Part shown: in pieces, positions 4,758 to 33,000 of the stretch
Position numbering within the stretch: position 1 is the first letter of the stretch
How the letters are laid out: each line of letters starts with the position of its first letter
Source: Sphingorhabdus sp. EL138
Lineage (GTDB): Bacteria > Pseudomonadota > Alphaproteobacteria > Sphingomonadales > Sphingomonadaceae
Reading direction: 5' to 3'
Length of the DNA stretch: 64,000 nt
Assembly: GCF_945890115.1 (NCBI RefSeq)
Contig: NZ_CAMDCK010000005.1
Coordinates: 1 to 64,000, forward strand
Notes under the pieces: generated by a model
What the model was told of the DNA's origin: nothing
Databases searched by the model: none
What the model saw: only the letters and a program-made list of their open reading frames with translations
Program-made: the position numbers and the translations under genes

Positions 4758-5429
4758 ATGAACGTCACCGAAGCCGTTGCCTCACGGCGCTCTGTCCGGC
4801 AATTTCTGGATAAGCCCGTCGACAAGGATATTCTCGAGCGCGTGCTTGCCAAGGCGCAACGTTCGCCGTCTGGCGGCAATACGCAGCCTTGGAATGCCGT
4901 CATCCTGACAGGCGCGCCGCTGGCTGACCTGACCGCGATGATTAAGGCCAAGGTGGCAACGGCCCCGATGGGCGACGGCCATGAATATGACATCTACCCC
5001 AAGGGCTTGGATGGCCGATATGAAGAGCAACGGCGCGGCGTTGGCAAGGCGATGTTCGATGCGCTTAACCTCGCACGTGAAGATGGTGCTGGCCGCCTCG
5101 CGCAGGTGGGGAAAAACTGGGACAGCTTTGGCGCGCCGGTGCAATTATTCACCTACACGGCCAAATATATGGGTCCACCGCAATGGTCGGACATGGGCAT
5201 GTGGCTGCAAACAATAATGCTGTTGCTGCGCGAAGAGGGCCTCGACAGTTGCGCGCAGGAAATCTGGGCGATGTACGGCACGACAATGCGCGCATTGCTG
5301 AACATTGATGACGAGCATATCTTCTTCTGCGGCATGGCGATCGGCTATCGTGATGCGGACGCAGCCGTGAACAACTTCACGGTCCCTCGCGTGGAGATTG
5401 CGCAAGCGATACGGTGGGACGGGTTTTAA
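4758..5429 (+). CDS. Nitroreductase family FMN oxidoreductase
   Basis: The 223-residue protein is a nitroreductase-fold FMN enzyme. The N-terminal RRSVRQF segment and the following SPSGGNTQPW motif are the conserved FMN phosphate and isoalloxazine contacts of the family, and the C-terminal half carries the LLREEGLDSCAQEIW helix seen in homodimers of this type. It probably reduces nitro or enone groups with NAD(P)H. The start follows a purine-rich ribosome site (GGGGAAATAGAG). The palindromic operator just upstream suggests its own regulated promoter rather than read-through from cobT. Confidence 0.85.
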   Translation: MNVTEAVASRRSVRQFLDKPVDKDILERVLAKAQRSPSGGNTQPWNAVILTGAPLADLTAMIKAKVATAPMGDGHEYDIYPKGLDGRYEEQRRGVGKAMFDALNLAREDGAGRLAQVGKNWDSFGAPVQLFTYTAKYMGPPQWSDMGMWLQTIMLLLREEGLDSCAQEIWAMYGTTMRALLNIDDEHIFFCGMAIGYRDADAAVNNFTVPRVEIAQAIRWDGF

Positions 5430-28927: not shown

Positions 28928-28949
28928 TATGCTAAACCTCGCACAAAAC

Positions 28950-29040
28950 CGTCACCCTGAACTTGTTTCAGGGTCCATCGTGCCCCACAAACCACCGGTC
29001 GAGGCTGATGAATAGACCCTGAAACAAGTTCAGGGTGACG
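28950..29040. repeat. Family A element between mccA and maoC
   Basis: Left arm CGTCACCCTGAAC...CAGGGTC, spacer CATCGTGCCCCACAAACCAC and on, right arm GACCCTGAAAC...CAGGGTGACG. Its spacer is the closest relative of the spacer translated inside cysS. Confidence 0.9.
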
Positions 29041-29057
29041 CGTAAATATGGTCATAA

Positions 29058-30914
29058 CTACGCCACCACCTCAATCCGCACCAACAAAGCCTCAACCTGC
29101 ACCTGCGCGCCAACCTCGGCATTCAACTCTTTTACTACCCCGTCGAACGGCGCGGTGAGGCTGTGTTCCATCTTCATCGCTTCGAGCGTCACGAGTTTCT
29201 GGCCCTTGGTCACTATATCCCCCGCAGCGACCTCGACCGCGATGATCCGGCCCGGCATGGGCGACAATATTGCGCCATTGCTTACTGCACTATGCCCCGA
29301 CCCGCGCGGTTCATCCAAGACATAGCGGCGGGCAAAGCCATCGGCAAAGGCGAGCACATCTGCGGTAGGTGCGTCGGCCTCAATCGCATCAAACGCGACG
29401 ACATAAAGGTTGCCCGCGTCGTCCAAGAGGCGTGCTTCCGCACGTGGTGGTGCATTCAAACGGAAGCCAAGAATTGCGCTGATGGGACCGTCGCCGGGGC
29501 TGGCGCACAACAACGCCGCCGCCTCGGCAAGTTCTTCTGGCTCTGGCTCGGATGGATGCACAAGATTATCAACCTCGCGCGCAATCAGACCCGTATCAAC
29601 ATCGCCAAGTCCGAAGTCGTCCAAATCAAGCAACCGGCCCAAGAAACCGGCGTTCGTTTTCACTGGCCAAACTTCCGTGCCGTCAATGCCGTCGCGCAAT
29701 CGGTCCATCGCCGCGTCCCGCGTTTCGCCCCATGCGATCAACTTGGCGACCATCGGGTCGTAAAAGGGCGAAACTTCGCCGCCTTGCCCTACGCCTGTGT
29801 CGATGCGCAATTCTTCGGGAAACTCCAAATGGTCGAGCGGACCAGTCGACGGTAAAAAGCCAGTCGCCGGATTTTCGGCATATAACCGCGCTTCCATCGC
29901 CCAACCGTTAATGCCCAGTTCGTCCTGCCGAAGCGGCAACGCCTCCCCGCTCGCCACGCGCAATTGCCATTCGACAAGGTCCACGCCCGTAATCTCTTCG
30001 GTCACCGGATGTTCAACCTGCAACCGCGTGTTCATCTCCATGAACCAGATGCGGTCGGCGCGAAGACCCTCTGATGCGTCGGCAATGAACTCAATCGTGC
30101 CTGCGCCGACATAGTCGACGGCTTTTGCCGCTTTCACCGCGACCGCGCAAAGCTGTGCACGGGTCGCTTCGTCCATGCCCGGTGCGGGGGCTTCTTCGAT
30201 GACCTTCTGGTGACGACGTTGCAGCGAACAATCACGTTCGAACAAATGCACAATGTTGCCGTGGGTGTCGCCAAACACCTGCACCTCAATATGGCGGGGG
30301 CGTTGGATATATTTCTCGATCAGGACATGGGCATTGCCGAACGACGCGCTGGCCTCACGCTGGCATGACGCGAGCGCATCGGCAAAGTCGGCGGCATCCT
30401 CGACCTTGCGCATCCCCTTACCTCCGCCGCCCGCGACGGCCTTGATAAGAACAGGATAGCCGATTTCGGCAGCGCGTTCCTTAAGGAACGCTGGGTCTTG
30501 ATTATCGCCCATATAGCCCGGCGTCACGGGCACGCCTGCTTGGGCCATCAGTGTCTTGGCCGCATCCTTCAGGCCCATTGCGGTGATGCTCGCAGGTGCT
30601 GGCCCGACCCAGATGAGGCCAGCGTCCATCACCGCCTGCGCGAATTCGGCGTTTTCGGAGAGGAAACCATAGCCGGGATGGATTGCTTCTGCTTTGGTGG
30701 CAAGCGCGGCGGCAATAATCTTATCACCCACCAAATAGCTCTCCCGCGCCGCAGACGGCCCAATATGCACCGCCTCGTCGGCTTCGCGCACATGCAGCGC
30801 CTTGGCATCGGCATCGGAATAAACCGCAATTGTGCGCATACCCATGGCCCGCGCTGTGCGGATAATCCGGCAAGCAATCTCGCCCCGATTGGCGATGAGG
30901 AGAGATTGGATCAT
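29058..30914 (-). CDS. mccA: Biotin carboxylase/biotin carrier subunit of methylcrotonyl-CoA-type carboxylase
   Basis: The 618-residue alpha subunit starts [20 protein letters not shown], carries the ATP-grasp loop VAGGGGKGMR and the HVLIEKYIQRPRHIEVQ stretch, and ends in a biotinyl domain whose lysine is in EAMKMEH near residue 583. It carboxylates biotin and passes it to the beta subunit. The length and partner fit 3-methylcrotonyl-CoA carboxylase of leucine breakdown, though related acyl-CoA carboxylases are hard to separate. Its ATG overlaps the DUF559 stop (ATGA). Confidence 0.88.
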   Translation of the reverse strand: MIQSLLIANRGEIACRIIRTARAMGMRTIAVYSDADAKALHVREADEAVHIGPSAARESYLVGDKIIAAALATKAEAIHPGYGFLSENAEFAQAVMDAGLIWVGPAPASITAMGLKDAAKTLMAQAGVPVTPGYMGDNQDPAFLKERAAEIGYPVLIKAVAGGGGKGMRKVEDAADFADALASCQREASASFGNAHVLIEKYIQRPRHIEVQVFGDTHGNIVHLFERDCSLQRRHQKVIEEAPAPGMDEATRAQLCAVAVKAAKAVDYVGAGTIEFIADASEGLRADRIWFMEMNTRLQVEHPVTEEITGVDLVEWQLRVASGEALPLRQDELGINGWAMEARLYAENPATGFLPSTGPLDHLEFPEELRIDTGVGQGGEVSPFYDPMVAKLIAWGETRDAAMDRLRDGIDGTEVWPVKTNAGFLGRLLDLDDFGLGDVDTGLIAREVDNLVHPSEPEPEELAEAAALLCASPGDGPISAILGFRLNAPPRAEARLLDDAGNLYVVAFDAIEADAPTADVLAFADGFARRYVLDEPRGSGHSAVSNGAILSPMPGRIIAVEVAAGDIVTKGQKLVTLEAMKMEHSLTAPFDGVVKELNAEVGAQVQVEALLVRIEVVA

Positions 30915-31402
30915 GGGCTCGAACTTTCAAACACCTCCCCGGACCGGGGAGGGGGACCGCCAGCCAACGGCTGGTGGTGGAGGGGTTGGTGTTCGGCGCA
31001 AGCGGCAACAATAGTCGCAAGGGCATCTTCAAGGCTTTGCAGAACATACACCGCAGGCAAGCGTAAGATATGAAACCCACGGGACCGAAGATAAATGTCA
31101 CGCTGTGCGTCTCGCTCTGGTCTGTCGCCTGCTCCATGCGCTTCGCCATCGATTTCAATGGCGAGCCGACATTCAAGGCAAACAAAATCGATTACGACAT
31201 CACTCAGCGGATGCTGACGACGAAATTTATACCCGCCGGGACGCTTGCGCAGTTCGCGCCAAATCAGAACCTCAGGCAGATTACCGGAGCGACGCTCGCG
31301 CTTTGCAACAGCATACGCGTTCGATAAGGCGGATAGCACCCCTCCACCATCCTTCGGATGGTCCCCCTCCCCGGTTCGGGGAGGTGTTTGGTGCTCACTC
31401 AC
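30911..31402 (-). CDS. DUF559 (Vsr-like) endonuclease-fold protein
   Basis: The 163-residue protein has a DUF559 domain at about residues 30-130. It shows [20 protein letters not shown], then [18 protein letters not shown], then RGFHILRLP, which fits the PD-(D/E)XK/Vsr nuclease fold with the acidic residues in DF and EID. Residues 4-22 and about 139-163 are encoded by the inverted repeat arms that border it. It starts with GTG overlapping the mccB stop and ends overlapping the mccA start, both by 4 bases. Biological role unknown. Confidence 0.82.
30928..31390. mobile_element. Putative nuclease cassette with terminal inverted repeats in the mcc operon
   Basis: The left end begins CAAACACCTCCCCGGACCGG and continues GGAGGGGGACC; the right end, inverted, reads CAAACACCTCCCCGAACCGG and the same continuation, so about 31 bases agree with one change. 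Inside each lies a small hairpin of different sequence and then GGTGGAGGGGT. Only the DUF559 gene lies between. The cassette splits mccB from mccA. Family membership with the short elements at 5456 and 7104 is judged from shared architecture. No clear target duplication could be seen. Confidence 0.65.
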
Positions 31403-33000
31403 ATCCTAAACACCCCAAAGCGGGGTGCCTCCTCTACGGGGGCGTTTAGGGCGGCGGCGAAGGCTAGCCCCAACACATCGCGGGTTTGCGCTGGGTCGAT
31501 GATGCCATCATCCCACAGCCGCGAGGTCGCGTAATAAGGATTGCCTTCATCCTCATATTTCTGGCGGATTGGGGCTTTGAAGGCTTCGGCTTCCTCCGCC
31601 GTCCATTTTTCCGCATCACGGTGAACCGTCGCCAGCACCGAAGCGGCTTGTTCGCCGCCCATCACCGAAATCCGCGCATTGGGCCAAGTGAACAGGAATC
31701 GTGGCGAATAAGCGCGCCCACACATGCCATAATTGCCCGCGCCAAAGCTTCCGCCGATTAGCACGGTAATCTTAGGCACGCTCGCGGTGGCAACGGCGGT
31801 GACGAGTTTGGCACCATGCTTGGCGATGCCCTCCGCCTCATATTTGCCGCCAACCATGAAGCCGCTGATATTCTGCAGGAACAGCAACGGTATCCGCCGT
31901 TGGCAGGCTAGCTCAATGAAATGCGCGCCTTTGACCGCGCTTTCCGAAAACAGCACGCCATTGTTGGCAAGGATCGCGACTGGCATGCCCCAGATATGTG
32001 CAAAGCCGCAGACCAAGGTCGTGCCATACAGCGCCTTGAATTCATGAAATTCGCTGCCGTCGACAAGGCGCGCGATAACTTCATGGACATCATAAGGCGC
32101 ACGGACATCATCGGGGATGACACCGTAAAGTTCGTCGGTGTTGAACTTTGGCGGACGGGGTTCTTTTACATCAATGTCGGGTTTGTGGGTTGCCCCTAAA
32201 TGGCTGATAATATCGCGCACGATGGTCAACGCATGTTCGTCATTTTCGGCGACATGATCCACCACCCCCGACTTGCGACCATGCAAGTCGCCGCCGCCTA
32301 AATCCTCGGCGCTGATTTCCTCGCCTGTCGCAGCCTTCACCAATGGCGGGCCAGCCAAGAAGATTGTGCCTTGATTGCGGACAATGATGCTTTCGTCCGA
32401 CATCGCAGGGACATAAGCGCCGCCCGCGGTACAACTGCCCATGACACAGGCGATTTGCGGGATGCCCTTGGCGCTCATATTGGCTTGATTGAAAAATATG
32501 CGGCCAAAATGGTCGCGGTCGGGGAAGACTTCATCCTGATGCGGCAAGTTCGCGCCGCCGCTGTCGACCAGATAGATGCACGGCAAATGGTTCGCCTCGG
32601 CAATTTCCTGCGCGCGCAAATGCTTTTTGACGGTCATCGGGTAATAAGTGCCACCCTTTACGGTCGCGTCGTTGCAGACGATCATGCACTGACGACCCGA
32701 AACGCGGCCTATTCCCGTGATCAGGCCTGCGCCGGGGATTTCGCTATCATACAGGTCGCAGGCTGCAAGCTGGCCGATTTCTAGGAAAGGCGAACCGCTA
32801 TCCAGCAGGCGCTCGACGCGCTCACGGGGGAGCAATTTGCCACGCGAAGTGTGCCGCTCACGCGACTTCTCGTTACCACCCAGCGCGGCTTCGGCAACCT
32901 TGGCCCAAAGCGCATCACGCAACGCTCGGTTGTGTGCGGTGCGCGCCTTAAACTCCTCGGAGTCAGGGTTGATCGACGTTGGCAAGACGGGAGCGCTCAT
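31399..33000 (-). CDS. mccB: Carboxyltransferase (beta) subunit of methylcrotonyl-CoA-type carboxylase
   Basis: The 533-residue crotonase-fold carboxyltransferase has the [20 protein letters not shown] start and the acyl-CoA pocket segments [14 protein letters not shown] and [14 protein letters not shown]. The C-terminal biotin-binding half shows [20 protein letters not shown] and [20 protein letters not shown]. This pattern fits 3-methylcrotonyl-CoA carboxylase beta. A family A palindrome is only 11 bases before its start, and its end supplies the GGAG ribosome site. Confidence 0.9.

Follow-up and report, generated by a model that had tools for sequence, protein, structure and literature searches.

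DUF559 nucleases and triplex-capable palindromic repeats form, we conclude from sequence comparisons, one co-evolving system that resembles the RAYT-REPIN partnership but is built from unrelated parts. Repeats that match the gene accompany DUF559 across very diverse bacteria and suggest a so far unnoticed enzyme-repeat partnership behind a common bacterial repeat type. The evidence consists of the association itself, the type-by-type co-evolution of gene and repeat, a class-wide link between the gene and repeat copy number, a mirror purine tract lying mostly on the gene side, insertion of a gene-bearing unit at a site that is empty in relatives and purifying selection on the nuclease.

The window (the whole 64,000-nucleotide stretch of Sphingorhabdus sp. 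EL138 DNA analyzed here) contains a unit of 463 bases at 30928-31390, placed between the genes for the carboxyltransferase (named mccB here) and the biotin carboxylase (mccA). Its outer inverted arms (30928-30958 and 31360-31390) are 31 nt each and 97% complementary, and a second, inner pair has arms of 12 nt (30975-30986 and 31338-31349). An ORF on the minus strand (31402-30911, 163 aa, GTG start) was assigned to DUF559 by a Pfam profile search (PF04480; E = 2.3e-22, 79.3 bits compared to a curated cut-off of 20.6), and its reading frame runs through the repeats at both gene ends. The GTG start overlaps the carboxyltransferase stop codon (GTGA, 31402-31399), and the frame terminates in an overlap with the biotin carboxylase ATG (ATGA, 30914-30911). 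A preliminary description of this DNA had proposed a 463-base unit bounded by inverted repeats of about 31 bases, a Vsr-like DUF559 gene within it, repeats translated at both ends of the protein and stop/start overlaps with both neighbors, and on each of these points the locus is as described. Its features, with the evidence for each in parentheses, are:

30911..31402, minus strand: DUF559 (PF04480) PD-(D/E)XK-type nuclease gene (ORF, Pfam, dN/dS of 0.07-0.10 among the three copies at this site)
31366..31384, minus strand: outer hairpin at the 5' end of the gene, CCTCCCC-gaacc-GGGGAGG (inverted-repeat search, folding)
31346..31362, minus strand: second hairpin at the 5' end of the gene, between the purine arm and the third-strand tract (folding)
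31339..31345, minus strand: purine tract GGAGGGG that mirrors the purine arm and faces the gene, a candidate third strand for an intrastrand triplex (sequence reading)
30934..30952, plus strand: outer hairpin at the 3' end of the gene, CCTCCCC-ggacc-GGGGAGG (inverted-repeat search, folding)
30956..30978, plus strand: second hairpin at the 3' end of the gene (folding)
30979..30985, plus strand: mirror purine tract GGAGGGG on the gene side (sequence reading)
30928..31390, no strand: entire insert, bounded by inverted repeats (same junction empty in 14 relatives)
31399..33000, minus strand: upstream neighbor, carboxyltransferase subunit, mccB-type (PF01039)
29058..30914, minus strand: downstream neighbor, biotin carboxylase subunit, mccA-type (PF02786, PF00289, PF02785, PF00364)

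A point that the preliminary description missed is that both arms combine two hairpins with a mirror purine tract. Reading towards the gene, each end consists of CCTCCCC-loop-GGGGAGG, a second hairpin and finally GGAGGGG. This GGAGGGG gives the purine arm in reversed order without complementing it, as does the purine third strand in the layout of an intrastrand triplex. At the level of sequence, both ends therefore follow the published PIT/TM arrangement, in which a pyrimidine arm, a purine arm and a mirror purine tract succeed one another, and they could fold into a triplex. When folded as single-stranded DNA, the two ends each gave the two hairpins, with energies of -15.8 and -20.0 kcal/mol (z = -3.8 and -3.6). 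The palindrome core occurs four times in the window (two sites on both strands, with at most two mismatches) compared to 0.08 expected.

Comparison with relatives shows the 463-base unit, with its defined arms, to be an insertion. The biotin carboxylase protein was searched in 61 genomes and 30 loci were read, of which 26 were readable at the junction (L126, L131, L133 and L134 were not). The junction was empty in 14 of the 26, where the carboxyltransferase match is followed by a gap of 7-8 nt, a length that counts the stop codon. Three held the same DUF559 unit (the window genome, G003 and G006), three held different DUF559 units (G021, G015 and G026, with those of G021 and G026 related at 86% identity) and six held 448-1389 nt of other sequence, with no DUF559 among the profile matches listed there. 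At L126 (G020), where the upstream gene lies off the contig, DUF559 matches flank the biotin carboxylase gene on both sides. A second insertion locus, occupied by a unit of palindrome type T2 (see below), was filled in L047, L051, L053 and L066 and empty in L069. Together, the empty junctions and the empty T2 site bear out the insertion proposed in the preliminary description. Comparison of empty and filled sites by eye revealed no clear target-site duplication between flanks that have diverged, and no other transposition signature or movement was found at these sites.

Both overlaps and the frame through both repeats were retained in the G003 and G006 copies, and dN/dS over the core of the three copies was 0.07-0.10. 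The idea that the insert leaves the operon coupled holds for its downstream side, where the ATGA overlap on the biotin carboxylase start was present in all six DUF559 inserts, including those of G021, G015 and G026, but not in general for its upstream side, where the GTGA overlap was found only in the window genome, G003 and G006. Nothing shows selection for landing in a frame-neutral manner, as had also been suggested: the ATGA endings may be due to chance (~1 in 27) because there were perhaps three separate insertions and because a TGA always lies within the biotin carboxylase start.

The same junction shows several further peculiarities. It is an insertion hot spot (L117, L118, L119, L122, L124, L128, L130, L132 and L135), six relatives holding other sequence there, and in L117, L124, L128 and L130 the beginning of the biotin carboxylase gene is partly duplicated between the two genes. 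Beside the DUF559 unit of L122 (G015) is a small ORF that looks, by eye, like a GIY-YIG nuclease. In L121, L123, L127, L129 and others, the carboxyltransferase is ~97% identical to that of the window and the biotin carboxylase ~70-74% identical in one group and ~92% in another, a drop at the junction that looks as if the biotin carboxylase gene had been exchanged exactly there.

Inverted arms around other DUF559 genes, which the preliminary description had proposed comparing with chance, were far more common than in the controls. PF04480 matched five genes in the window genome, three of them carrying other palindrome types, and 72 in total across 34 of 61 genomes (the window genome and 60 relatives). 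We analyzed 63 of the 72, leaving out six that scored below 50 bits as well as G048:C600, G038:C156 and G045:C50, and counted as arms any inverted repeat scoring at least 15 between the 300 bases on either side of the gene. With three loci at contig ends set aside (L092, L094 and L104), arms were present at 47 of 60 testable DUF559 genes, including 45 of 52 from the same genus, compared to 5 of 180 neighboring ORFs and 6 of 1200 random placements. Across the class, probably the Alphaproteobacteria to judge from matching named contigs, 29 new loci (one per genome, taken from 43 genomes with a match) gave 19 genes with arms and 0 of 290 controls. Named loci representing the best 80 of 564 confirmed relatives, a set that spans the Alpha-, Beta- and Gammaproteobacteria, Chloroflexi, Nitrospirae, Rokubacteria and Desulfobacterales, had arms at 56 of 80 genes versus 2 of 800 random placements. 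Sampling the best relatives of Escherichia coli YcjD within the phylum gave 15 of 29 versus 4 of 288; this sample shares a few genomes with the class sample and leaves out L267, which is from the window genome. Arms fell below the threshold at 7 of 52 same-genus genes, 10 of 29 class genes and 24 of the 80 named genes (best 80 of 564).

Palindrome sequence follows nuclease ancestry. Seven types were distinguished by eye from the stems, namely T1 (CCTCCCC.., the type in the window), T2 (CCCCTCCCG..), T3 (CCCTCTCCC..) and further variants T4 to T7; they were assigned before the DUF559 tree was built, and 13 of the 63 rows that had no clear type were left unlabeled. On the tree of the 50 labeled rows, the seven types required six changes, which is the minimum, compared to 24 or more in 300 label shuffles that ignore relatedness among the genes. 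Stem similarity was also correlated with protein identity over 1496 pairs below 60% identity from 56 of the 63 genes (Mantel r = 0.30, reached in 0 of 2000 permutations). None of the 50 pairs of DUF559 genes that are at least 65% identical lie within one genome, and 39 have homologous flanks and thus occupy matching loci. The 11 with non-homologous flanks comprise 9 of the 10 pairs in the T5 clade, L054/L097 and L085/L086. These counts lend no support to the freely mobile gene-carrying unit envisaged in the preliminary description; it is the repeats, rather than the gene-carrying unit, that are dispersed.

In the window genome, the exact core CCTCCCC-N-GGGGAGG was found at 11 sites, some of which are inverted pairs without a gene. 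Reading loci by eye, we identified such gene-less pairs at L008, L011, L014 and L015 and pairs enclosing a gene in the window and at L004, an organization that matches REPINs, in which inverted pairs are scattered through the genome and a pair of the same kind encloses the partner gene. Among 37 genomes of the genus, T2 palindromes beyond the gene arms numbered 6-28 in the six genomes with a T2 gene and had a median of 0 in the 31 without (P = 8e-4). Four genomes lacking a T2 gene nonetheless carried 61 (G015), 27 (G025), 12 (G029) and 10 (G034), and the repeats therefore persist or arise without the gene. In G015, which has no T2 DUF559 among its matches, they have possibly outlived it. For T1, the type in the window, copy number was not significantly linked to the presence of a T1 gene in the genus (P = 0.13). 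At class level, we compared 80 genomes, each from another family: 29 with a full-length DUF559 match and 51 of the 72 without (20 listed plus the first 31 by handle), with 13 genomes that had only weak matches left out. The motif CCCTCYCC-N-GGRGAGGG was present in 26 of the 29 genomes with the gene (median 9, up to 164) compared to 9 of the 51 without it (maximum 6). After subtracting two copies per gene, the difference in copy number had P = 1.7e-8, or P = 2.6e-4 for genomes of at least 3 Mb.

The hairpin architecture of the window was recovered in all three larger sets. Pyrimidine/purine hairpins were found on 95 of 123 flank sides of DUF559 genes in the genus and order set, 46 of 58 in the class set and 136 of 160 in the named set; random 200-nt stretches drawn from these loci had them in 2 of 123, 2 of 58 and 3 of 160 cases. 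The pyrimidine arm came first in 275 of 277 hairpins, which is a property of the hairpin and not a polarity because a hairpin reads alike on both strands. A mirror purine tract adjoined the purine arm in the direction of the gene in 70 of 95, 32 of 46 and 85 of 136 cases, compared to 11.5%, 9.7% and 5.5% in same-base shuffles. For the 271 of 277 sides with sufficient sequence in both directions, the tract was on the gene side only in 166, on the outer side only in 43, on both in 19 and on neither in 43. The gene side is therefore favored about four to one, and the polarity is a bias rather than a strict rule.

The nuclease is under purifying selection and its motif residues are conserved: median dN/dS over DUF559 pairs was 0.10 (16 of 18 pairs gave a value), and E16, D45, E56, D58 and H62 did not vary among the 20 aligned sequences, of which the window protein is one. 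A predicted model of one family member (L098; pLDDT 89.8) retrieved NGO0050 (E = 1.8e-9), I-Bth0305I (E = 2.2e-4) and Vsr (E = 0.014) with Foldseek, and this predicted fold, together with the conserved acidic and histidine motif, points to a PD-(D/E)XK, Vsr-like nuclease. NGO0050, I-Bth0305I and Vsr, which we take to group as EDxHD nucleases, would thus have a fold in common with DUF559; they differ in that no repeat partner was found for them in the literature searched, whereas DUF559 genes are associated with one, which gives the family a concrete candidate DNA substrate. A RAYT or TnpA-REP identity of the unit was ruled out, its protein being PF04480 and the window genome having 0 matches to PF01797 (the HUH Y1 transposase domain of RAYT), and a RAYT as mobilizer of the repeats in this genome was rejected for lack of a PF01797 match.

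The repeats are related to a motif that has already been described. PIT/TM repeats (Hoyne et al. 2000, 2002; Holder et al. 2015, PMC4666352) have the same architecture, and type T3 matches the published PIT/TM intrastrand-triplex motif, being nearly identical in sequence; type T1 differs by an extra hairpin between the purine arm and the third strand. As presented in the portions of those papers drawn on here, PIT/TM repeats have no partner gene, whereas a DUF559 gene accompanies the repeats in our data. ycjD has 0 occurrences in PMC4666352, and open-licence literature in PMC yielded no link of DUF559 or ycjD to triplex repeats. According to the same portions of Holder et al. (PMC4666352), the E. 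coli motif formed a triplex in vitro but not stably in vivo, TM loci in E. coli are unstable, earlier work gave no promoter or terminator activity for TM motifs and no activities for genetic mobility were ever found around TM sites.

E. coli offers a genome in which gene and repeat can be considered together. ycjD of K-12 MG1655 (1351407-1351760) is annotated as DUF559 and scored 167 bits against the profile, and Table 1 of PMC4666352 gives 23 TM copies in the same strain. TM no. 9 (1351204-1351239) lies 167 bases from ycjD, a closeness for which we estimate, roughly and for one gene, a chance of 0.3% (18 TM regions, 762 bases each, 4.64 Mb). TM no. 9 is not ycjD's own inverted end because its third strand points away from the gene; a decayed hairpin lies directly at the ycjD stop codon in K-12. 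The stretch between ycjD and TM no. 9 also contains part of the ycjD 3' end a second time (L245, ~5310-5370), a trace of an earlier duplication. In the two closest YcjD relatives of our sample (L246 and L247), the final codons overlap a T3 repeat whose third strand faces the gene, and further repeats follow downstream, with no partner repeat 5' of the gene. Behind the DUF559 gene of L246, about six repeat units of the triplex type, counted by eye, follow one another in tandem with similar spacers. ycjD was well covered in 3362 of 5426 E. coli genomes, and one E. coli control genome had no PF04480 match, from which it follows that E. coli can lack a DUF559 gene. One ycjD-less strain, SMS-3-5, was considered as an empty site and set aside: efflux and TetR-type genes adjoin fabI there (the text consulted of PMC12817139 places eefRABCD in the gap next to fabI), and the site is not a clean one because other genes fill this gap.

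The explanation we favor, and hold to be probable, is a two-part system of DUF559 nuclease and triplex repeat in which the window unit is one element and the repeats would be spread by means of the nuclease. Such a widespread system would consist of a DUF559 nuclease gene, each close type occurring once per genome, and cognate triplex-capable palindromes that bound the gene as inverted ends and are dispersed as short gene-less inverted pairs. The repeat may fold when single-stranded, for example on the lagging strand; the nuclease would recognize the hairpin or triplex and nick at or beside the repeat; and a new copy could then arise elsewhere, often in a short intergenic gap, when the repeat pair is copied from the primed break or joined. 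The DUF559 gene would be kept as the source of the enzyme, as RAYT genes are for REPINs. A bolder version, which we put forward as a tentative possibility, is that DUF559 is the missing partner of PIT/TM repeats, including those of E. coli through ycjD, and that it recognizes the folded strand and drives its copying, such that a restriction-type nuclease and not a transposase spreads an element of non-B DNA. A type-matched gene family makes the origin of these repeats testable at once, K-12 MG1655 having both ycjD and 23 listed TM copies.

The closest parallel is REPIN-RAYT. Much as for DUF559 here, RAYT genes are described in the part of PMC3116915 used here as occurring once per type and being mostly vertically kept, with palindromes of their own type beside the gene, dispersed gene-less inverted pairs and co-evolution of gene and repeat types. 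The enzyme there is of the HUH/Y1 kind, whereas here it is a PD-(D/E)XK nuclease, and the repeats here are pyrimidine/purine hairpins capable of forming triplexes. Should the repeats indeed be spread by the nuclease, this would amount to a second solution, unrelated to the first, for the task presumed for RAYT and REPIN. MITEs mobilized by IS transposases are similar in having short non-autonomous inverted pairs alongside a longer gene-bearing version, but the protein encoded here has no transposase domain and no target-site duplication was seen.

Among other explanations, the one that survives best is a host repair or quality-control function, with DUF559 resolving triplex or hairpin obstacles and the repeats spreading otherwise or by replication slippage. 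The fold kinship with Vsr, the purifying selection on DUF559 and the instability of TM loci in E. coli (PMC4666352) would all fit, as would the Caulobacter DUF559 protein VsrA, tied to the DNA damage response and proposed to be a mismatch repair enzyme in the text consulted of PMC12907096. By itself, such a role leaves unexplained the frequent enclosure of the gene between two inverted copies of its own type and the near-absence, not excess, of repeats in genomes without the gene, and we consider it unlikely, although worth keeping in mind.

A homing-type cassette, in which the enzyme cuts the empty junction, the cassette is copied by gene conversion and the repeats are merely its ends, seems less likely still. 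The second-best structural neighbor is the catalytic domain of the homing endonuclease I-Bth0305I, the junction holds varied inserts and, in several relatives, partial biotin carboxylase starts, in all six DUF559 inserts the end of the nuclease frame overlaps the biotin carboxylase start, and the same insert is shared by the window genome (G000), G006 and G003 even with a G003 biotin carboxylase that is merely ~70-73% identical. Homing to a single site does not explain the arms because they recur at many unrelated loci, also where there is no gene.

A host function for the repeats, as transcription terminators or other signals that came to lie beside DUF559 by chance or owing to an unrelated transposase, is very improbable. 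Palindromes were taken as presumed terminators in Enterobacter sp. 638 (in the part of PMC2869309 used here), but neighboring genes rarely have arms (5 of 180), palindrome type matches DUF559 clade, TM motifs were without promoter or terminator activity in the earlier work related by Holder et al. (PMC4666352, as excerpted) and the Y1 transposase PF01797 had 0 matches in the window genome. Plain vertical descent of the gene with coincidental C-rich flanks would account for the 39 of 50 close pairs at orthologous loci but is contradicted by the arm and copy-number controls and by the empty sites, and we give it almost no credence.

The window contains one other repeat structure close to the operon. 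A search with Rfam returned only sub-threshold matches, two of them to plant microRNA families at 28948-29041, which we took to be chance. At 28950-29040, right behind the biotin carboxylase gene, there is an inverted pair (CGTCACCCTGAACTTGTTTCAGGGTC...) with 29-nt arms spaced 33 nt apart. It resembles a CGTC-tagged REP dimer as in PMC3733652, the portion of which used here describes this REP class as apparently without a dedicated transposase.
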